A stretch of DNA of 64,000 bases, taken from the IMG/VR virus record IMGVR_UViG_3300037882_003354, positions 1 to 64,000 of that record; one strand, written 5' to 3'. Numbering within the stretch: position 1 is the first letter of the stretch; each line of letters begins with the position of its first letter. The stretch is from a virus. Of this stretch, positions 10,515 through 53,413 are shown piece by piece. Made by a program: the position numbers and the translations under genes. Below the pieces are notes generated by a model. It was not told the DNA's origin, made no database searches, and worked only from the letters and a program-made list of their open reading frames with translations.

Positions 10515-11108
10515 ATGTATTCAAATCTTGTACCCATGGTGGTAGAGCAATCGGCTCGCGGTGAGCGCGCCTTCGACATCTTCTCACGTCTGTTGAGCGA
10601 ACGAATTGTGTTCCTCAACGGGCAGGTGGACGAACAGTCGGCCAATCTGGTGGTGGCACAGATCTTGCACTTGGAGAGTTCAGATTCCGAGAAGGACATA
10701 CATTTGTACATCAACTCACCAGGCGGGGTCATCACGGCTGGCATGGCCATCTATGACGTCATGCAGTTTGTCAAGCCCGATGTGTGCACTTATGTCATGG
10801 GTCAGGCTTGTTCCATGGGCTCGTTCCTGGCGCAGGCTGGCACTCCGGGCAAGCGTTTTGTACTACCCAACTCCAGAACCATGATTCATCAGCCGTCGGG
10901 TGGTGCTCGTGGCATGGCCAGTGATATTGAAATTTCCTACAACGAAATCATGTACTGGAAGAAACGGCTGACTGAACTGTATGTCAAGCACAATACCCAG
11001 GGCAAGACCTACGAAGAATTTGAACGTAACATGGATCGTGACACCTTCCTGAGTGCCCAAGAGGCCCTGGACTTTGGGTTGTGCGACAAAATCATTCAGC
11101 AACGGTGA
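10515..11108 (+). CDS. clpP: ATP-dependent Clp protease proteolytic subunit ClpP
   Basis: 197 residues, near full bacterial length. Catalytic triad Ser100 (GQACSMGS), His125 (MIHQPSGG) and Asp176 (MDRDTFLSA) is intact, and the INSPGG strand is present. ClpP forms a 14-subunit barrel that degrades proteins fed by ClpX or ClpA. A phage-encoded ClpX lies at 37319-38548, so the phage can make a complete ClpXP. AAGGAAAA precedes the ATG. T4-like cyanophages and some other phages also carry clpP, where it is suggested to act in head maturation or host protein turnover. Confidence 0.96.
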
Positions 11109-37099: not shown

Positions 37100-37332
37100 T
37101 ATAATTTTTTAGGCAGCTCTTGTTCCCGCAATTGTTTGAGCCAGCGGGCTCGGGCAGCACCCTTTTTACGTTTACGTTCAGTGGTGGGCTTCTCATAGAA
37201 CATGCCGGATCTGACCACCTCCAGGGTGCCGTTGTCTTCAATCAATTGCTTGAATTTACGCATGGCCACCGTGAGTGGTAGATCCCCCACCGTTATGCTT
37301 GATCCGCGTGTGTTGATTTTATTCCGCTTCAT
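37096..37332 (-). CDS. rpsU: Ribosomal protein bS21
   Basis: 78 residues. bS21 pattern: [40 protein letters not shown], then a Lys/Arg-rich helix. bS21 sits near the anti-Shine-Dalgarno site of the 30S subunit and affects initiation on mRNAs. Phage copies are known in aquatic phages and may steer host ribosomes to phage messages. The ATG lies 14 bases inside the end of clpX, so the two are translationally coupled. Confidence 0.92.
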
Positions 37333-38548
37333 CGTCTGAATTTTCTTCGAATGTCATGGCAGCTGGCTGGCCAGTCACAGTGTCTTTGTTTACACAGATG
37401 CTTTTAAGACCCCGCTCCACTAGATTGACGGCATCAAATTGATAGGGCAACAGCGCACGCTCTATGATGTTCTTCAGGCCACGAGCATTGGTCTTCAATT
37501 CCTTGGCACGTTCTGCTATGTGAGTCAAGGCTGACTCTTCAAAAATTAGATCAATACCATCCAGCTCAAACATGTATTGATACTGGCGGATCAGACTGTT
37601 CTTGGGTTCTTTCAGCACGGTCACCAGATCGTCCACAGACAGTTCATCCACATTGGTTATCAGACCAAAACGTCCAACAAATTCTGGAATGAAACCAAAC
37701 TGTATGATGTCCTTGGTGGTCACCTGCTGATAAACTTTACTGTTGTTTTCCAAGTTGGCCACTGATGCATGAAAACCAATGCTGCGACTTTCCAGACGCT
37801 TGCTGATGATTTTGTCCAGGCCCACAAATGCACCACCACAGATGAACAGCATGTTGCGAGTGTCAATTTCTTGCATGTCACCACCGGGATGTTTGCGCTT
37901 GCCCGAATGCGGTACTCTGACAATGCCTCCCTCGATCATTTTAAGCAGGGCCTGCTGTACACCCTCTCCACTGACGTCGCGAGTGATGCTCATGTTTTCA
38001 CCCTTGCGAGCAATCTTGTCGATTTCGTCGATGTAAACAATGCCTCGGCTGGCCCTTTCAACGTCACCGTCGGCAGCGTTGATCAATCTGAGTATGATGC
38101 TTTCCACATCGTCGCCCACATAGCCGGCTTCTGTGATGCCAGTGGCGTCGCAGATGGCGAATGGTAGATCCAGGTAGTCGGCTATCTTTCTGGCCATGAG
38201 AGTTTTCCCGCAGCCAGTGGGCCCCAACAGCAACACGTTGGTTTTTTCCAACTCAATGTCCTTGCTGGGATTGTTGATGCGTTTGAAATGCTGGCTCACA
38301 GCCACACTGAGCACTGTCTTGGCATCTTCTTGGCCCACCACATAGTCGTCCAGGTAGTCCTTGATGGCAGTGGGATTCAGGGTCCGTTTCTCTGTGGGGT
38401 CGGCTTTACCTTTTTCATCATCCAGGATGCCCACACACAGACTGATACAATCGTTACAAATGGCGGCGTGCTCGCCCACGATTAGTTTTTCCACGTCTTC
38501 TTTGCTTTTTCCGCAAAAATCACACACATGATTAAGTTGTTTAGCCAC
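37319..38548 (-). CDS. clpX: ATP-dependent Clp protease ATP-binding subunit ClpX
   Basis: 409 residues, near full length. Zinc-binding Cys9, Cys12, Cys31, Cys34; Walker A GPTGCGKT (109-116); pore loop GYVG (142-145); Walker B IVYIDE (170-175); the IGF tripeptide used to dock on ClpP is kept (SIGFHAS). It unfolds tagged proteins, including those ending in an ssrA-type tag, and feeds them to ClpP (10515-11108). Its zinc domain normally binds adaptors such as SspB. Overlaps rpsU and the upstream gene. Confidence 0.96.
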
Positions 38549-45182: not shown

Positions 45183-45267
45183 GTTTTCTCCAGGGTTATG
45201 AAATGTCACATGTATAATGTAGCATGATGTCATGATTAATGCTAGTGTTTTTTAAAATATTTTCATC

Positions 45268-45295
45268 AAAAGAATGGGCCCCGAGGAACCCATTC
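45268..45295 (-). terminator. Rho-independent terminator of the tmRNA gene
   Basis: GAATGGG/CCCATTC stem with inner CC/GG pairs (45272-45295), followed on the minus strand by TTTT (45271-45268). Confidence 0.85.
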
Positions 45296-45592
45296 ACTAT
45301 TTCCTGTTTCTAGGGATAGTTCCCCAATGATGGTTTAAGCGGCCATCAAATATGCATCATCATTAGCTGCATTTAAAGGTTTTGCTTGATTGACAGTCAT
45401 CGCCTACTGTGTTGCCTGCTCCACTATCTCGCGCAATCGAAAACCTGGTCATCCCCATCAAAAGCACTCCCACGGTTTATCTGTCCGTTGCCAGCATACT
45501 ATGTACCTGGATGAAAATGCTTTTGGTGGAGATGGGCGGAATCGAACCGCCGTCTTGCCCGCCTTTGTTTTGCCGGAATTACAACAATTAAG
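45296..45592 (-). ncRNA. ssrA: Circularly permuted two-piece tmRNA (transfer-messenger RNA)
   Basis: tmRNA frees stalled ribosomes and tags the unfinished protein. On the minus strand the acceptor piece comes first: T-arm GGCGG-TTCGATT-CCGCC (45551-45535), CATCTCC (45534-45528), A and CCA (45526-45524). About 67 bases later the coding piece starts GGGGATGACCAGG (from 45456). GGGGATG pairs with CATCTCC over 7 bp, with G3-U70 as the one wobble, the alanine identity signal. UGUUG...UUCC of the acceptor piece can pair with GGAG...CAACA of the coding piece as helix P2. The frame ending at 45335 reads AANDDAYLMAA (E. coli: AANDENYALAA). Such permuted genes are known in alphaproteobacteria, cyanobacteria and some betaproteobacteria. 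Confidence 0.93.
45335..45370 (-). other. tmRNA tag reading frame: AANDDAYLMAA
   Basis: GCA GCT AAT GAT GAT GCA TAT TTG ATG GCC GCT TAA. The GCA at 45370 has A at -4 (UAAAU-GCA), like the E. coli resume context. An in-frame GCA at 45385 would add AKPLN in front. AAND...Y matches the SspB contact and the terminal AA fits ClpX recognition. Confidence 0.85.
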
Positions 45593-45599
45593 AATATTT

Positions 45600-45628
45600 A
45601 GTCTACACTGGTTTGCCGTCTGCGTCAA
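45600..45628 (-). promoter_or_regulatory. Probable tmRNA promoter
   Basis: On the minus strand TTGACG (45628-45623), 17 bases, TAGACT (45605-45600), inside the end of the DUF2452 gene. The predicted start near 45592 matches the 5' end needed for helix P2 of the acceptor piece. Confidence 0.55.
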
Positions 45629-46094
45629 CTTCCACCCAGGTGTAATCTCCCAACCACATGACTCGGGCAATGTACTCATATTCGTCAGGAATGAACCAAT
45701 GGTCAGGATCAGTGATCACCAGCCGAGTAATGTTTTTCCTGGAATCAAAAACCAACCAGTAGGGTCGGCCGTGGCACACCTGAAACTGGTATTCAGCAGC
45801 ATGCACCTGATCTGTGATCATCAAGCGACGCTGAATGGCCTGCGCCTGTCGTTCCAGCACCCGTACCATGTCCATGATTCTGTCATACTCTTGCTGTGCG
45901 TACATCCTGGCCACATTGAGCATGACGTCCTTCTGCTGGGTCACTGGCACCAGATCAAACTTAGGACCACCTGCTTCAGTGGGGTAGGGACTCACATTCC
46001 TGTTGAAGAACGTCACCATGGCACCGTCGATTCGGGCGTCGTAACTGGTCCGGCCCTTGGCCAGATTGGATTTTTCTTCAGGATCAGGGTTCAT
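45603..46094 (-). CDS. DUF2452 family phage protein
   Basis: 163 residues from ATG 46094. LNVARMYAQQEYDRIMDMVRVLERQAQAIQ helix (read in two parts) followed by AAEYQFQVCHGRPYWLV, and ending YEYIARVMWLGDYTW, matches DUF2452. Function unknown. The frame is open upstream as far as a TGA near 46160 and reads protein-like (GGGPSRPRESANRIEQF), but contains no usual start codon, so a longer or frameshifted form is possible. Confidence 0.8.
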   Translation of the reverse strand: MNPDPEEKSNLAKGRTSYDARIDGAMVTFFNRNVSPYPTEAGGPKFDLVPVTQQKDVMLNVARMYAQQEYDRIMDMVRVLERQAQAIQRRLMITDQVHAAEYQFQVCHGRPYWLVFDSRKNITRLVITDPDHWFIPDEYEYIARVMWLGDYTWVEVDADGKPV

Positions 46095-48011: not shown

Positions 48012-49382
48012 CTATACTAAGAACCCCAAATTAGGTTTCGAGAATCTTCCAATGTTGGGCACGACGGTGGACAAGTCTGAGGCAGGCACGCCAAACCAGG
48101 ATGCGAGGGTGGCCGCATATTCATCCACAGAGGTGGTGGGGATCAATCGACCCTGTCCAGCGTCCTCCGGACTACCTATAGCAACTGTTGGGAAATTACC
48201 GTAGATTCTATTTCCTAGAACTGCACCACCCATAATGAAGTGATGACTACCCCATCCGTGATCTGATCCTTGACCATTGCCCTGCAGGGCACGACCAAAC
48301 TCCGATGCTGTAAAGCTGGTCACACTTTCAGATATGCCCATGGCAACGGTCGCCTGATAGAACGCTGTCATGGCGTCGGAAAGTTCCTTCATTCTGACTG
48401 CATGATCATTTACGAGATTAGCGTGTAAATCGTTACCACCCATGTTAACAAAAAATATCTGTCTCTTTTGCGACAATCCACCTCTGGCACCAATCAAACG
48501 AGCCACCATCCTCAATTGCCTACCAAGATTTGTATCAGGGAATAGTGTACTTGCGGGTACATTAGATAAAGCATTAGTAACCAAGACCTCTGTGGAAATA
48601 GCTCTGGTTGACACTTTATTCAGCTCGTTTTCTAGTAGGCTACTTCGTGGATCCGTGATAAGTTTTCTCATAGCAGGACCAATAGATGGAGCATGATATG
48701 CTCCATTTGCTAAAGCATATACTTTGATCGCACCTCCCACGGAACACTGATACTGGATGGTGTTATTTCCGATTTGCATAGTATTATTACCAGCAACGGA
48801 TATTGCAATAGACACTCCACTGCCTGGATTGAATGCACTGTTGGTTAAGTCTCCGATACGTCCCAACCATCCCGTACTGGAGGCACGGTCTGGCAAGCCA
48901 GTTTGCCAGGCGCGAGTTTGATCTGAGTGGGAGAACAGTTGAAATGGTAGATCTACGCTGCCATTTTTGTACTGTGTTTTTGTTGTTGGAACGCAAAGTG
49001 GCCCAACATTGGCAAGTACGGCGAGATTTTCCTGATCGAATACGGATTTTAGGCCGCCCATCGATCCGTTGAATGCTAGAGTAGGACCATTCCATCCAGA
49101 AGGACTGATCTGCTGGAGACCAGAGACGGGCAGGGCAAGAGCTCCTCTGCCTTTGGCGTAGAGGTCGTACTCTGCCGCGCTGACGGGGACGATGGTGTTT
49201 GACTGATCGTTGCCGCCACCGAGGTAGATGCAAACCAGAGCCTTGTAGTCGCTGGCCTGCTGTGCGCTGGCTGCACCCATGGCAAGCAGGTTGGCCGCGA
49301 ATGGCGTCCCGGCCAGAGCACTAATTTTTGAAAATTTCTGGAGGAATTGACGGCGATTGGCTGCATTGAATGTGTTTGTCAT
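48012..49382 (-). CDS. DUF1501 protein with Tat signal
   Basis: 456 residues, the length of cellular members. Twin-arginine signal: NRRQFLQKF, then SALAGTPFAANLLAMGAASA. Core blocks ALVCIYLGGGNDQSN, FSHSDQTRAWQTG, FFVNMGGNDLHANL, ASEFGRAL and GSDHGWGSHHFIMGGAV. Exported and probably folded in the cytoplasm first. Paired with the DUF1800 gene upstream (8-base gap), as in bacteria. Very different from the phage's other DUF1501 protein. Confidence 0.9.
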   Translation of the reverse strand: MTNTFNAANRRQFLQKFSKISALAGTPFAANLLAMGAASAQQASDYKALVCIYLGGGNDQSNTIVPVSAAEYDLYAKGRGALALPVSGLQQISPSGWNGPTLAFNGSMGGLKSVFDQENLAVLANVGPLCVPTTKTQYKNGSVDLPFQLFSHSDQTRAWQTGLPDRASSTGWLGRIGDLTNSAFNPGSGVSIAISVAGNNTMQIGNNTIQYQCSVGGAIKVYALANGAYHAPSIGPAMRKLITDPRSSLLENELNKVSTRAISTEVLVTNALSNVPASTLFPDTNLGRQLRMVARLIGARGGLSQKRQIFFVNMGGNDLHANLVNDHAVRMKELSDAMTAFYQATVAMGISESVTSFTASEFGRALQGNGQGSDHGWGSHHFIMGGAVLGNRIYGNFPTVAIGSPEDAGQGRLIPTTSVDEYAATLASWFGVPASDLSTVVPNIGRFSKPNLGFLV

Positions 49383-49390
49383 GGTGTCTC

Positions 49391-51571
49391 CTATTTTTGT
49401 GTGATAAATTCTGGTGACACCATAGTCAGCAACACAGCAGCGGCAACTCTAGTGTGACCTGAATCCCTAGTTGCCGGAATGGTGTTTATTACATTGATGA
49501 TCGTTTGTTTGGTGGAACTACTCATTCGACCTGCAGTGAGAAGCAAGTTCAAACGATCTACAAGTGCCACTGGGTTCGAGGCTAGGGCCATTTCCACGCT
49601 GTAGTCAGCACCGAGATAGTGATCAACCGAGCCATATTTAATGGCGACGTTATCTCTCCACCAATTGGTTTGCCGTTCCGCTATGTTAGTAATAAAGTTG
49701 TCATAGCCTGTTACTGTGGTTTCATGGGTTATAGCGAACTCCGGTGCTACCAGACCTCTATTCATGATTTCACCTGGTGGTGAATAAGTAGGGCTAAACC
49801 AGTTGAAAACGCTTGGGGCTCTTAGAGGGTTTTGGCCTATGCTTGATACAGGATCTTCGAGATTCCAGATCTTGTAATACCCACTGGTGGCCTTGACATC
49901 AAAGGCGCGCATGAAGTTAGCATATCTGATCATCGGCTCGCGAAGTTTCCCCCACAACGGATCCGACACCTTGGAGGTATCTCGAGCCTCTGGGTCGAGC
50001 AACACGGCCTTGATCACCGCTTTCATGTCACCGCGCACGCCTTGGCCATTGTTGTTGAAGGCTGCTGTCACCCTCGAAACATAGGCTGGGCTCGGATTGC
50101 TGGTGACGAAACGCTTGATCAACTGGCTGCCAATGAAGGGCCCCACGTTGGGGTGGTTGAACAGGGTGTCCAGCGCGATCTTCAGACTTTGCTCTCCAGT
50201 GGTGCCTGCCGGGATGACGACACCCCTGATGATATTCTTTTCACTGGTGCTATGGTACTGTGGGTAATTGATCATTTGCTTACTCCAACTGTTATAGGTC
50301 ACGCTGCTCCAACCATTCCAGTCACTAGCCCAACTCCAGCCCGTGAAAACCTTGGCCATACCCATCACGTCGATCTGGTCGTAGGTGGGTATGTCCTTAC
50401 CATACGCATCTTTTTTTCTTGATCCGTCTGGGTTCAGTTCCCACAGACCTATTGAAAATAACTGCATCATCTCACGTGCAAAATTTTCATCAGGAATTCT
50501 GCCTGTTATTGGATCTTCTTTTATGTTCTTAAAATGAGACAAATAATGGCCCATTGTTGGGTGAGTTGCCACTTGTTCCAGCAGGGTGCGATAATTACCA
50601 AATGCATTACGAGACAGCATATCAAGATAGCTAGCGTGTGCGTCCTTTTGTACCTCTACTGCACTATTGACCGTGCTGACAACGAAGATCTCGCTGAGCG
50701 CAAAGACTAAACGCTGACGCAATTGGTCAGGTCCGACAACAGCTTGTCGCCAGAAACTTTCCATTACTGCGTTGATGTGCTCAGAATTACAAGGGTTGCA
50801 TCCTGGTGGCCCCTTGCGCTCCATCACATAGGTCCAGTGGGTTTCCAGGCTGGGTGTCACAAACTGGTTTTCAATCCACGCGGCCGGGCCGGACTGGGCC
50901 ACCGATGAAATGCTGCTCATGTTGGGACCGAAACTCGCCTGCACGAGAAAGCGCGCCGCTTCAGCTGGAGTTACAGAAGGAGGAGCAGGTGCTGGTTCTG
51001 GCGCAGGTGCTGGAGCAGGTGCTGGAGCAGGTGCTGGAGCAGGTGCTGGAGCAGGTGCTGGAGATGTACCTGGAACAAATCCCACTGGGTAATAACAGGC
51101 TTTTACTGTTCCAACAATTGGGTCTCCAAACACCCAGTTATTACAGCCAACTATAGGTGTTGTGAAGGTCTTGGTGACAAATTTACCAGCAGCACCATAC
51201 GAAATACTAACGGGTGCGCCAGGTGAGCAGATTCCATTTTCAGTAGCACACGGAGTTGTTGAGAATCCTGTGGGAGCTGTAGTTAGCACCGTTACTTCTG
51301 TGTAGCAGGATTTAGTTTTCGTGGTGGTTAAACGACCAAACGTCTGGTCGCTGCAAACGAACGTGGCTTCCCGCATTGACTTCAGGCGAAATTTGCCAGC
51401 AGCTCCGTAAAGTACCCTCGAGGCCTTTGGAAGCGTGCAAGTCTGACCCTCGACCGCGCAGGGGGTAGACGAAAACGTCATGCCTGCAAGCCTGAATGTT
51501 TCCGCAGATACTACTGGTGCCGCGTATCCAGCCAACACCAGAGATAATGTTAAAAGTATTTTAAGTTTCAT
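49391..51571 (-). CDS. Secreted DUF1800 protein with two Cys-rich N-terminal domains
   Basis: 726 residues. Signal peptide (1-23, MKLKILLTLSLVLAGYAAPV...), then two copies of a roughly 70-residue Cys module (ETFRLAGMTFSSTPCAVEG; PTGFSTTPCATENGICSPG), an Ala-Pro repeat linker, and the DUF1800 domain (FARFLVQASFGP-like start, DENFAREMMQLFSIGLWEL, TSNPSPAYVSRVTAAF). The Cys module also starts the neighbouring DUF1996 protein. Probably periplasmic or surface-exposed; function unknown. Confidence 0.9.
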   Translation of the reverse strand: MKLKILLTLSLVLAGYAAPVVSAETFRLAGMTFSSTPCAVEGQTCTLPKASRVLYGAAGKFRLKSMREATFVCSDQTFGRLTTTKTKSCYTEVTVLTTAPTGFSTTPCATENGICSPGAPVSISYGAAGKFVTKTFTTPIVGCNNWVFGDPIVGTVKACYYPVGFVPGTSPAPAPAPAPAPAPAPAPAPAPEPAPAPPSVTPAEAARFLVQASFGPNMSSISSVAQSGPAAWIENQFVTPSLETHWTYVMERKGPPGCNPCNSEHINAVMESFWRQAVVGPDQLRQRLVFALSEIFVVSTVNSAVEVQKDAHASYLDMLSRNAFGNYRTLLEQVATHPTMGHYLSHFKNIKEDPITGRIPDENFAREMMQLFSIGLWELNPDGSRKKDAYGKDIPTYDQIDVMGMAKVFTGWSWASDWNGWSSVTYNSWSKQMINYPQYHSTSEKNIIRGVVIPAGTTGEQSLKIALDTLFNHPNVGPFIGSQLIKRFVTSNPSPAYVSRVTAAFNNNGQGVRGDMKAVIKAVLLDPEARDTSKVSDPLWGKLREPMIRYANFMRAFDVKATSGYYKIWNLEDPVSSIGQNPLRAPSVFNWFSPTYSPPGEIMNRGLVAPEFAITHETTVTGYDNFITNIAERQTNWWRDNVAIKYGSVDHYLGADYSVEMALASNPVALVDRLNLLLTAGRMSSSTKQTIINVINTIPATRDSGHTRVAAAVLLTMVSPEFITQK

Positions 51572-51583
51572 GATTTAATATCC

Positions 51584-53413
51584 TTAATAACCAAGCATCT
51601 GATTTCCATCACCCAGATTGTTAGTATGACAATCTCTGCTGCGTTGATTGCAGTTCAACATCCAAGTATTTATCAAACCACTCCAACCATTCCACCAGTC
51701 TCCATGACCACTAAATCCACCAGGAGTTCCCATGGGATAGTTGTCTGAACTCAGTCTCCAGTAGGTGTCAATGCCAGGTTCTTTTACGGGGTAGTAGATA
51801 TTGAAAGCTATCTCAGTAAGAGGTACTGGATGTGTTGCTGGACAGCCAAAAGCAGGATAGGCCATGTGTGCCTTGTGGTCTGGACTGTCTAGATTAACTC
51901 CATCCCAACACTGTGGAAATTGCACACCCATTACCATTGTGCTTCCAACTGGACAATTGGGTATTGACTTGCCACGAGGTGGTGCAGTCATACCAGCGGG
52001 AACACCCTGACACTCATAGGTAACTTTTGACGAAGTGGCAGAATCCACAGCCTTCATGTTACCAGCAATCATTCTTAATCCTACTGGCAGTGGCTGAATT
52101 AAACTAGGTGGAATATAGCTATATCCAGTCTTGTAGTAAATTTGATTGCCCCTTGCCTGGATCGGAGTATTAGTACGAGTATCGATCATGGTGGGAACCC
52201 AATACGAACTACGATTGGCGATACCACCACCACAGGTGGAATTGCCTGTGTTGGTCAGACTGTCAGTGGTACTGAACGCATCTGCTCCGGTATTTCCAAA
52301 GAAGGTGTGGAGATGTGATGCTCCGTTCTGGCCAGGGTATATGATGGGATCGTTAAATCCCATGTGGCTGTAACCACACATCATTCTGAAAGCACCAATG
52401 TTACTAGTGGTAATATCGTCCGTTGCGTGAAATTTCAAACGTAAATCGCTAAAGCCAGAGGCTCTTTTGGGCACTTGATTGATGTCTACAACGGGCATAT
52501 CGCCCATTTTCATGCTGAGATTTTGTGCAGTGCTGGCTGGCGTAAACACCTGGCATTCCTTCAGGTCATTATGCCAATAACCCAAATAACCATGAGAGCA
52601 GGTTCCACCCAGTGTGTCCTGACGATAGAACCACTTGCCGAGTCCATCACCCCAACGGACCATTTTGGTGCCTTCAAATGAGTATGGTTGGTTAAGCAAA
52701 GCAACACGGCTCCAAGTGCCTGGTGGGATATCTGGCAGTACATTATGCGACATCATTGACATGGGTACCTCTGGCATGACAAGTGGTACCACAACAGGTA
52801 ATGCCGCTACTGGAATATAGCAATGCTTTATCTTGCCAGGGGCGGGATCACCACCAAAAGTAGTGTTGTTACAAGTGACAACTTGACCAGCTAGGAAAGT
52901 TTTGATCGTATACGGACCTGCAGGTACCAGATCAAATGCTACAACAGGGCCATATGCAATAATGGTATCAATACTAGGAGTACATTTACGACCCCATTCA
53001 TCACCACAACTAGCAATGGAAAACTCATGACCACCGTAACTAAACGTTGGTTTAACTGGAGCAGGTGCGGGAGCAGGTGCGGGAGCAGGTGCGGGAGCAG
53101 GTGCGGGAGCAGGTGCGGGAGCCTCTATATAACAGGCTTTCTCTGATTTTGTTGTAGTCCTACCAAACGTCTTGTCGCTGCAAATGAAGGTACCTACCGG
53201 AATAGACTTCAGGCGAAACCTGCCAGCCACTCCGTAAAGCACCCTAGATTTATACGGAACAGTACATTGTTCACCCTCCACAGCACAAGGTGTAGATAAG
53301 AATGTCATCCCAGCTAACCTGAATGTTTCCGCAGATGCTGCGGGCATCGAGTAAGTCGCTAGCAGCAGAGGGATAGTTGATAAGATTGTTCTTAGTTTCA
53401 TGTTAGTCCTCAT
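51584..53413 (-). CDS. Secreted DUF1996 protein with Cys-rich module
   Basis: 609 residues. Signal peptide (about 1-28), a Cys module nearly identical in pattern to that of the DUF1800 protein (ETFRLAGMTFLSTPCAVEG), an Ala-Pro repeat, a second distant Cys module, then DUF1996 from about residue 300 (GASHLHTFFGNTGADAF; RSSYWVPTMI; FPQCWDGVNLDSPDH). Such domains are found in secreted bacterial and fungal proteins, sometimes near carbohydrate-binding modules. Probably acts outside the cytoplasm with its neighbours. Confidence 0.88.
   Translation of the reverse strand: MRTNMKLRTILSTIPLLLATYSMPAASAETFRLAGMTFLSTPCAVEGEQCTVPYKSRVLYGVAGRFRLKSIPVGTFICSDKTFGRTTTKSEKACYIEAPAPAPAPAPAPAPAPAPAPAPVKPTFSYGGHEFSIASCGDEWGRKCTPSIDTIIAYGPVVAFDLVPAGPYTIKTFLAGQVVTCNNTTFGGDPAPGKIKHCYIPVAALPVVVPLVMPEVPMSMMSHNVLPDIPPGTWSRVALLNQPYSFEGTKMVRWGDGLGKWFYRQDTLGGTCSHGYLGYWHNDLKECQVFTPASTAQNLSMKMGDMPVVDINQVPKRASGFSDLRLKFHATDDITTSNIGAFRMMCGYSHMGFNDPIIYPGQNGASHLHTFFGNTGADAFSTTDSLTNTGNSTCGGGIANRSSYWVPTMIDTRTNTPIQARGNQIYYKTGYSYIPPSLIQPLPVGLRMIAGNMKAVDSATSSKVTYECQGVPAGMTAPPRGKSIPNCPVGSTMVMGVQFPQCWDGVNLDSPDHKAHMAYPAFGCPATHPVPLTEIAFNIYYPVKEPGIDTYWRLSSDNYPMGTPGGFSGHGDWWNGWSGLINTWMLNCNQRSRDCHTNNLGDGNQMLGY

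Follow-up and report, generated by a model that had tools for sequence, protein, structure and literature searches.

A beta-type, circularly permuted tmRNA gene upstream of clpX on a phage contig

The window analyzed here (64,000 nucleotides, one part of the 322,512-bp virus record IMGVR_UViG_3300037882_003354 in IMG/VR) contains a circularly permuted tmRNA gene, found by ARAGORN and by two Rfam covariance models in agreement with a first-pass annotation made from the sequence. ARAGORN called a permuted tmRNA (tmRNA*) at 45244-45616 (-) with the tag AANDDAYLMAA, the sole RNA gene that it called in the window. The beta_tmRNA model (RF01850; cut-off 84 bits) matched 45271-45642 (-) with 139.5 bits (E 1.5e-42) and was the best-scoring model of its clan for this gene. 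The tmRNA_permuted model (RF04321; cut-off 47 bits) matched 45335-45586 (-) with 115.7 bits (E 7e-22). Both were full-model matches. A chance match is excluded by these E-values together with the covariation in relatives described below, and the locus is thus confirmed as a real permuted tmRNA gene. No riboswitch scored over the Rfam cut-off in the window. We consider it very probable that the gene provides a functional, phage-owned two-piece tmRNA (ssrA) of beta type, which would use host SmpB and deliver tagged products to host and/or phage ClpXP.

In the gene, the acceptor half lies upstream of the coding half, with an intervening segment between them. The elements, and the clp genes of the phage, are as follows:

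45600-45628 (-), promoter-like hexamers TTGACG-17-TAGACT, 9/12 consensus matches
45524-45586 (-), acceptor half
45555-45561 (-), 5' P2 strand of the acceptor half
45535-45551 (-), T-arm
45528-45534 (-), 3' acceptor strand CATCTCC
45524-45527 (-), encoded ACCA
45524-45534 (-), CATCTCC-ACCA element, CATCTCCACCA
45457-45523 (-), intervening segment of 67 nt, predicted to be removed; folds as a long helix
45296-45456 (-), coding half, with D-loop analogue and 3' hairpin
45450-45456 (-), 5' acceptor strand GGGGATG; the coding half begins at 45456
45430-45436 (-), 3' P2 strand of the coding half
45335-45370 (-), tag reading frame AANDDAYLMAA-stop, with resume codon GCA
45268-45295 (-), Rho-independent terminator, 10-bp stem then TTTT
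37319-38548 (-), clpX: zinc finger, Walker A GPTGCGKT, Walker B IDEID, pore loop GYVGDD, RKH loop and IGF ClpP-docking motif
10515-11108 (+), clpP: Ser-His-Asp catalytic motifs CSMGS, MIHQP and DRDTF, triad intact

Every part named in the first-pass annotation was recovered at its stated position. Its placement of an acceptor half with CATCTCC and CCA upstream of a coding half starting GGGGATG was exact to the base, and the RNA ends that it predicted, 45524 and 45456, agree to the base with the modeled element coordinates. The acceptor stem has the proposed seven pairs including G3.U70, with the 3' ACCA encoded, and the P2-like pairing of the halves was borne out, with 6 of 7 pairs in the window copy and covariation in relatives. 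ARAGORN returned the same tag frame, and the terminator expected after the gene is present. The promoter proposed before the gene fared less well: the hexamers exist, but their degree of match to consensus is no better than in shuffled sequence. They overlap the 3' end of the upstream ORF (45603-46094 (-)) and fall within the 5' part of the beta_tmRNA model match. In an unconstrained fold of the precursor, the acceptor stem joined the halves and the intervening-segment helix stacked on it (-51.6 kcal/mol; z -3.1; 0 of 200 shuffles as low).

The phage was also said to possess its own ClpXP, and both subunits are indeed encoded on the contig. E. coli ClpX carries motifs for ATP use, substrate grip, reading of AA tails (in which the RKH loop helps) and ClpP docking, and phage ClpX holds motifs for these roles. 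Judged by these motifs, phage ClpXP is a plausible destination of tagged proteins. SmpB gave no detectable match on the 322,512-bp contig, nor did an RF-1-domain rescue factor sought there. As separate observations, the window encodes a DUF1501 and DUF1800 pair at 48012-51571 (-), adjoining a DUF1996 protein (51584-53413), here in a phage. A protein at L015:14426-16693 (-) (genome 278426-280693) matches phrog_4871, a phage ATP-dependent protease family, over nearly its whole length, and is possibly a second proteolytic system beside ClpXP.

Relatives were found via ClpX (80 phage contigs, 62-77% identity; n = 81 with the window) and searched with profiles of both tmRNA halves. Both halves were present in 53 of the 81 contigs, in the same order, located a few kb upstream of clpX and sharing its strand; ~20 of these loci were missed by ARAGORN. 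About one third of the ClpX-bearing contigs, partly fragments, had no tmRNA in the flank covered. A less biased figure is given by the contigs longer than 150 kb, where tmRNA, ClpX and ClpP occurred together in 5 of 5. When whole records were searched, tmRNA_permuted scored over the cut-off in 32 of 35, a sample selected partly for having matches. The distance between tmRNA and clpX varies among relatives, with other genes in between, which makes a shared operon hypothetical. An acceptor-arm pattern matched at least 120 contigs in IMG/VR, and at least 81 had a permuted call by ARAGORN. DNA similarity searches with the tmRNA against phage and plasmid records were negative at the default threshold; at a loose threshold all matches were short and partial, mostly to the acceptor/T-arm part. 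A pattern for the 5' end of the coding half was discarded as a finder, as most contigs that it returned were unrelated and several of its matches were standard tmRNAs.

This recurrence of the tmRNA with phage ClpX and ClpP in the same neighborhood, together with the RKH loop kept in phage ClpX, argues against a tag addressed to host proteases only, with the phage ClpX and ClpP serving, for example, host protein turnover or replication control. Such a division of labor would be in keeping with the many substrates of ClpX other than ssrA-tagged proteins. In addition, Agrobacterium phage Atu_ph07 encodes ClpX and ClpP but gave no match in the permuted tmRNA search, and the authors describing jumbo phage AP-J-162 suggest a replication role for ClpX (PMC11242549). 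We regard exclusive use of host proteases as a serious possibility, though one to be held tentatively. Note that it is a sub-question of the preferred explanation, a working phage tmRNA, and not exclusive of it.

Of the 53 copies, 52 have a tag that could be read and that ends in AA or VA (that of L242 taken from ARAGORN), and nearly all tags end in (L/M/I/V)AA. The exception, L222 (4590-4930; tag ANDDTFLLAANA), ends in AANA; the two residues beyond LAA should alter protease recognition. The tag of the window gene ends in LMAA instead of LAA, a difference that might make the host protease recognize it less well. SmpB was found in 0 of 35 phage records, all possibly fragments, whereas the same search detected it in 10 of 14 control genomes. 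Reliance on host SmpB would fit this pattern; full independence from the host would require a phage SmpB. The lack of SmpB in these records would also suit an interfering RNA whose main effect is to titrate host SmpB and block host trans-translation, the role suggested for the tag-less molecule of phage DS6A; tag-less phage molecules with a tRNA-like domain can inhibit tmRNA (PMC4131195; PMC11915505). A decoy, however, would not need a tag frame, and here the frame, resume codon and stop are intact and are kept in nearly all relatives. We therefore consider interference very unlikely.

To assess pairing between the halves, we swapped halves between phages among 43 distinct copies (10,000 shuffles); this shuffling ignores relatedness, so the resulting figures are not probabilities. 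The acceptor stem, whose score is favored by construction because the best-pairing start was chosen and UCC at 70-72 and GG(G/A) at 1-3 were required, had 6.95 of 7 pairs as compared with a swapped mean of 5.71 (maximum 6.35). P2, which played no part in choosing that start, and whose observed score is lowered by four or five copies out of register (L195, L203, L206, L208, L222), had 6.33 pairs as compared with 4.62 (maximum 5.40). In neither helix did any of the 10,000 shuffles reach the observed pairing, and the excess also held on 27 distinct combinations. The acceptor stem types were GGGGATG/CATCTCC, GGGCCTG/CAGGTCC, GGGCCCG/CGGGTCC, GGGCCGG/CCGGTCC, GGGCCAG/CTGGTCC, GGGTCGG/CCGATCC and GGGGGTG/CACCTCC; by eye, the stem of L215, in which extraction slipped in register, is GGGGGAG/CTCCTCC. 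G3.U70, partly built in by the extraction rules, was retained in all 43 copies across several stem types, and no two-half locus failed these rules. The repeated two-sided changes are plain, and through such compensatory changes both inter-half helices are maintained.

The intervening segment ranges from 23 to 217 nt in relatives. Segments of 23 nt, apparently able to form a tight hairpin, were found in L186, L206, L207, L212, L222 and L228. These six copies have ACCU before the 23-nt segment, so that the final A of CCA would need post-transcriptional addition. In L260 (2500-2920), a tRNA-like 3' half (GAAGGTTCGATTCCTTC) lies within the intervening segment. Extra partial pieces, coding-only or acceptor-only, lie close to the main gene at L243:4240-4418, L194:5640-5736, L240:3648-3733, L223:5088-5141, L233:3051-3108, L222:3756-3803 and L215:5112-5195, as if halves had been duplicated or exchanged by recombination.

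The window tmRNA is 66% identical to its closest phage copy and at most 58% identical to the bacterial genes of a small sample. That it is nearer to phage than to bacterial tmRNAs is in keeping with a long history in phages and not with a recent capture from a host. An 80-row tree separated the phage rows and one bacterial beta-type gene from 36 other, mostly alpha-type, bacterial genes (support 99/99, with a long-branch warning). In a tree with three beta-type genes, most phage rows stayed with these and three phage rows went to the alpha side with weak support; the fork joining the window gene to the beta-type genes was weak (62/93) and the order was without resolution. Over the cut-off, a beta-type permuted gene was found in 1 of 399 Pseudomonadota genomes and in 3 of 70 genomes of one order. 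The permuted form had been taken to hint at a host lineage with two-piece tmRNA; this hint is weak, since the gene, although of beta type, has its nearest relatives in this sample among phage tmRNAs and not bacterial ones.

A captured or decaying host ssrA copy with no role in infection, arising for example from integration at ssrA, would account for the partial extra pieces beside the gene in some relatives, and ssrA is a common integration site with fragments known in prophages (PMC9004378). Given the complete gene, its conserved position, the compensatory changes in both inter-half helices and the greater closeness to other phage tmRNAs than to sampled bacterial ones, we find such an origin highly improbable. 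Misassembly of host DNA into the contig, conceivable for a metagenome assembly, is a negligible prospect, as the same gene lies in the same neighborhood in many other phage contigs and this contig bears terminase, portal, tail and DNA polymerase genes.

Tailed-phage marks on the contig further include ribonucleotide reductase, and its 11 tRNA genes all lie beyond the window. Among relatives, a GGCAGUG-type T-loop replaces UUCGANU in L186, L196, L202, L207, L211, L212, L216-L218, L221, L249, L260 and L263, and most genes of this kind were missed by ARAGORN. Its co-occurrence with different D-loop types among phage tmRNAs suggests convergence or that halves were exchanged. The loop is not in itself new, being common in bacterial alpha-type tmRNAs.

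Phage-encoded two-piece tmRNA as such is already known; the first-pass annotation was aware of no well-described permuted example in a phage with its own ClpXP. Buchholz et al. 2022 described one in phage Melnitz (Methylophilales) and counted 53 two-piece molecules among 133 unique phage tmRNA structures, 50 of them from marine or aquatic samples (PMC9004378); the tmRNA database holds 79 phage sequences (PMC11915505). Like these cases, the window gene is a complete permuted ssrA in an aquatic phage. The Melnitz gene, however, is alpha-related and accompanied by a glutamine riboswitch, whereas the window gene is beta-type and near phage clpX. With the Rfam families RF01850 and RF04321 it shares the order of halves, the G3.U70 acceptor stem, T-arm, P2 and tag ORF, differing in being phage-encoded with a 67-nt intervening segment, and it scores lower than cellular beta-type genes (139.5 versus 169-296 bits).

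Phage ClpX is likewise found in Sinorhizobium phage Phosso, AP-J-162 and Atu_ph07, with ClpP in Phosso and Atu_ph07; the ClpX of Phosso and Atu_ph07 is only 50-53% identical. One tmRNA, its form unstated, is reported for AP-J-162 (PMC11242549). The presumed novelty of a permuted tmRNA in a phage with its own Clp proteins does not hold: the cultured jumbo phage Phosso, which encodes them, has a permuted tmRNA (PV764938.1:349596-350198 (-), 113 bits) that is unannotated in its record. In Phosso, ~31 kb separate the tmRNA gene from clpX, and the tmRNA match covers 603 bp as compared with 252 bp in the window, indicating a far longer intervening segment. Huge phages with tmRNA and SmpB, thus likewise with ribosome-rescue parts, were reported by Al-Shayeb et al. 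2020 (PMC7162821); the passages concerned do not state a permuted form, and SmpB was not found on the window contig. No description of a clpX-linked group of beta-type tmRNAs was found in the open-access literature. What is new is the beta-type lineage, its syntenic position near phage ClpX and how broad the group is, and the clpX neighborhood, beta type and wide conservation lift the case above routine.

Ordinary trans-translation from a phage gene, using host SmpB and alanyl-tRNA synthetase, is the most likely mode of action; its expression, processing, charging, SmpB use and degradation route we infer as follows. A single precursor RNA would run from about 45600 down to 45268. Once tRNA-processing enzymes had excised the intervening segment, two RNAs would remain, an acceptor RNA with its CCA end at 45524 and a coding RNA starting at 45456, paired with each other in the acceptor stem and P2. 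Charging by host alanyl-tRNA synthetase would rely on G3.U70, and the charged tmRNA with host SmpB would enter ribosomes stalled on broken mRNA. AANDDAYLMAA would be added to the stalled peptide and the ribosome freed, and host and/or phage ClpXP would break down the tagged fragment ending in AA. Since host RNA is degraded by many phages, which also face RNA-cutting defenses, stalled ribosomes would be expected during infection. The benefit would be that ribosomes are kept available and junk peptides cleared during host RNA breakdown or under mRNA-cleaving defenses. During T4 infection host tRNAs are broken down but host SsrA remains stable; a need for SsrA throughout infection is a speculation of the authors (PMC9697503).

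It is conceivable, and we put it forward with reserve, that a largely undescribed group of huge phages carries a dedicated module consisting of its own beta-type tmRNA near clpX and its own ClpP, drawing on host SmpB and alanyl-tRNA synthetase and shaped by long evolution in phages with exchange of halves. Beta-type permuted genes are rare among the bacteria sampled and may have a reservoir in phages. The more than 40 diverged two-piece tmRNAs form a natural set for reading inter-half pairing directly. Should the phage tag be read by phage ClpXP, the infecting phage would have a quality-control pathway under its control at both ends.
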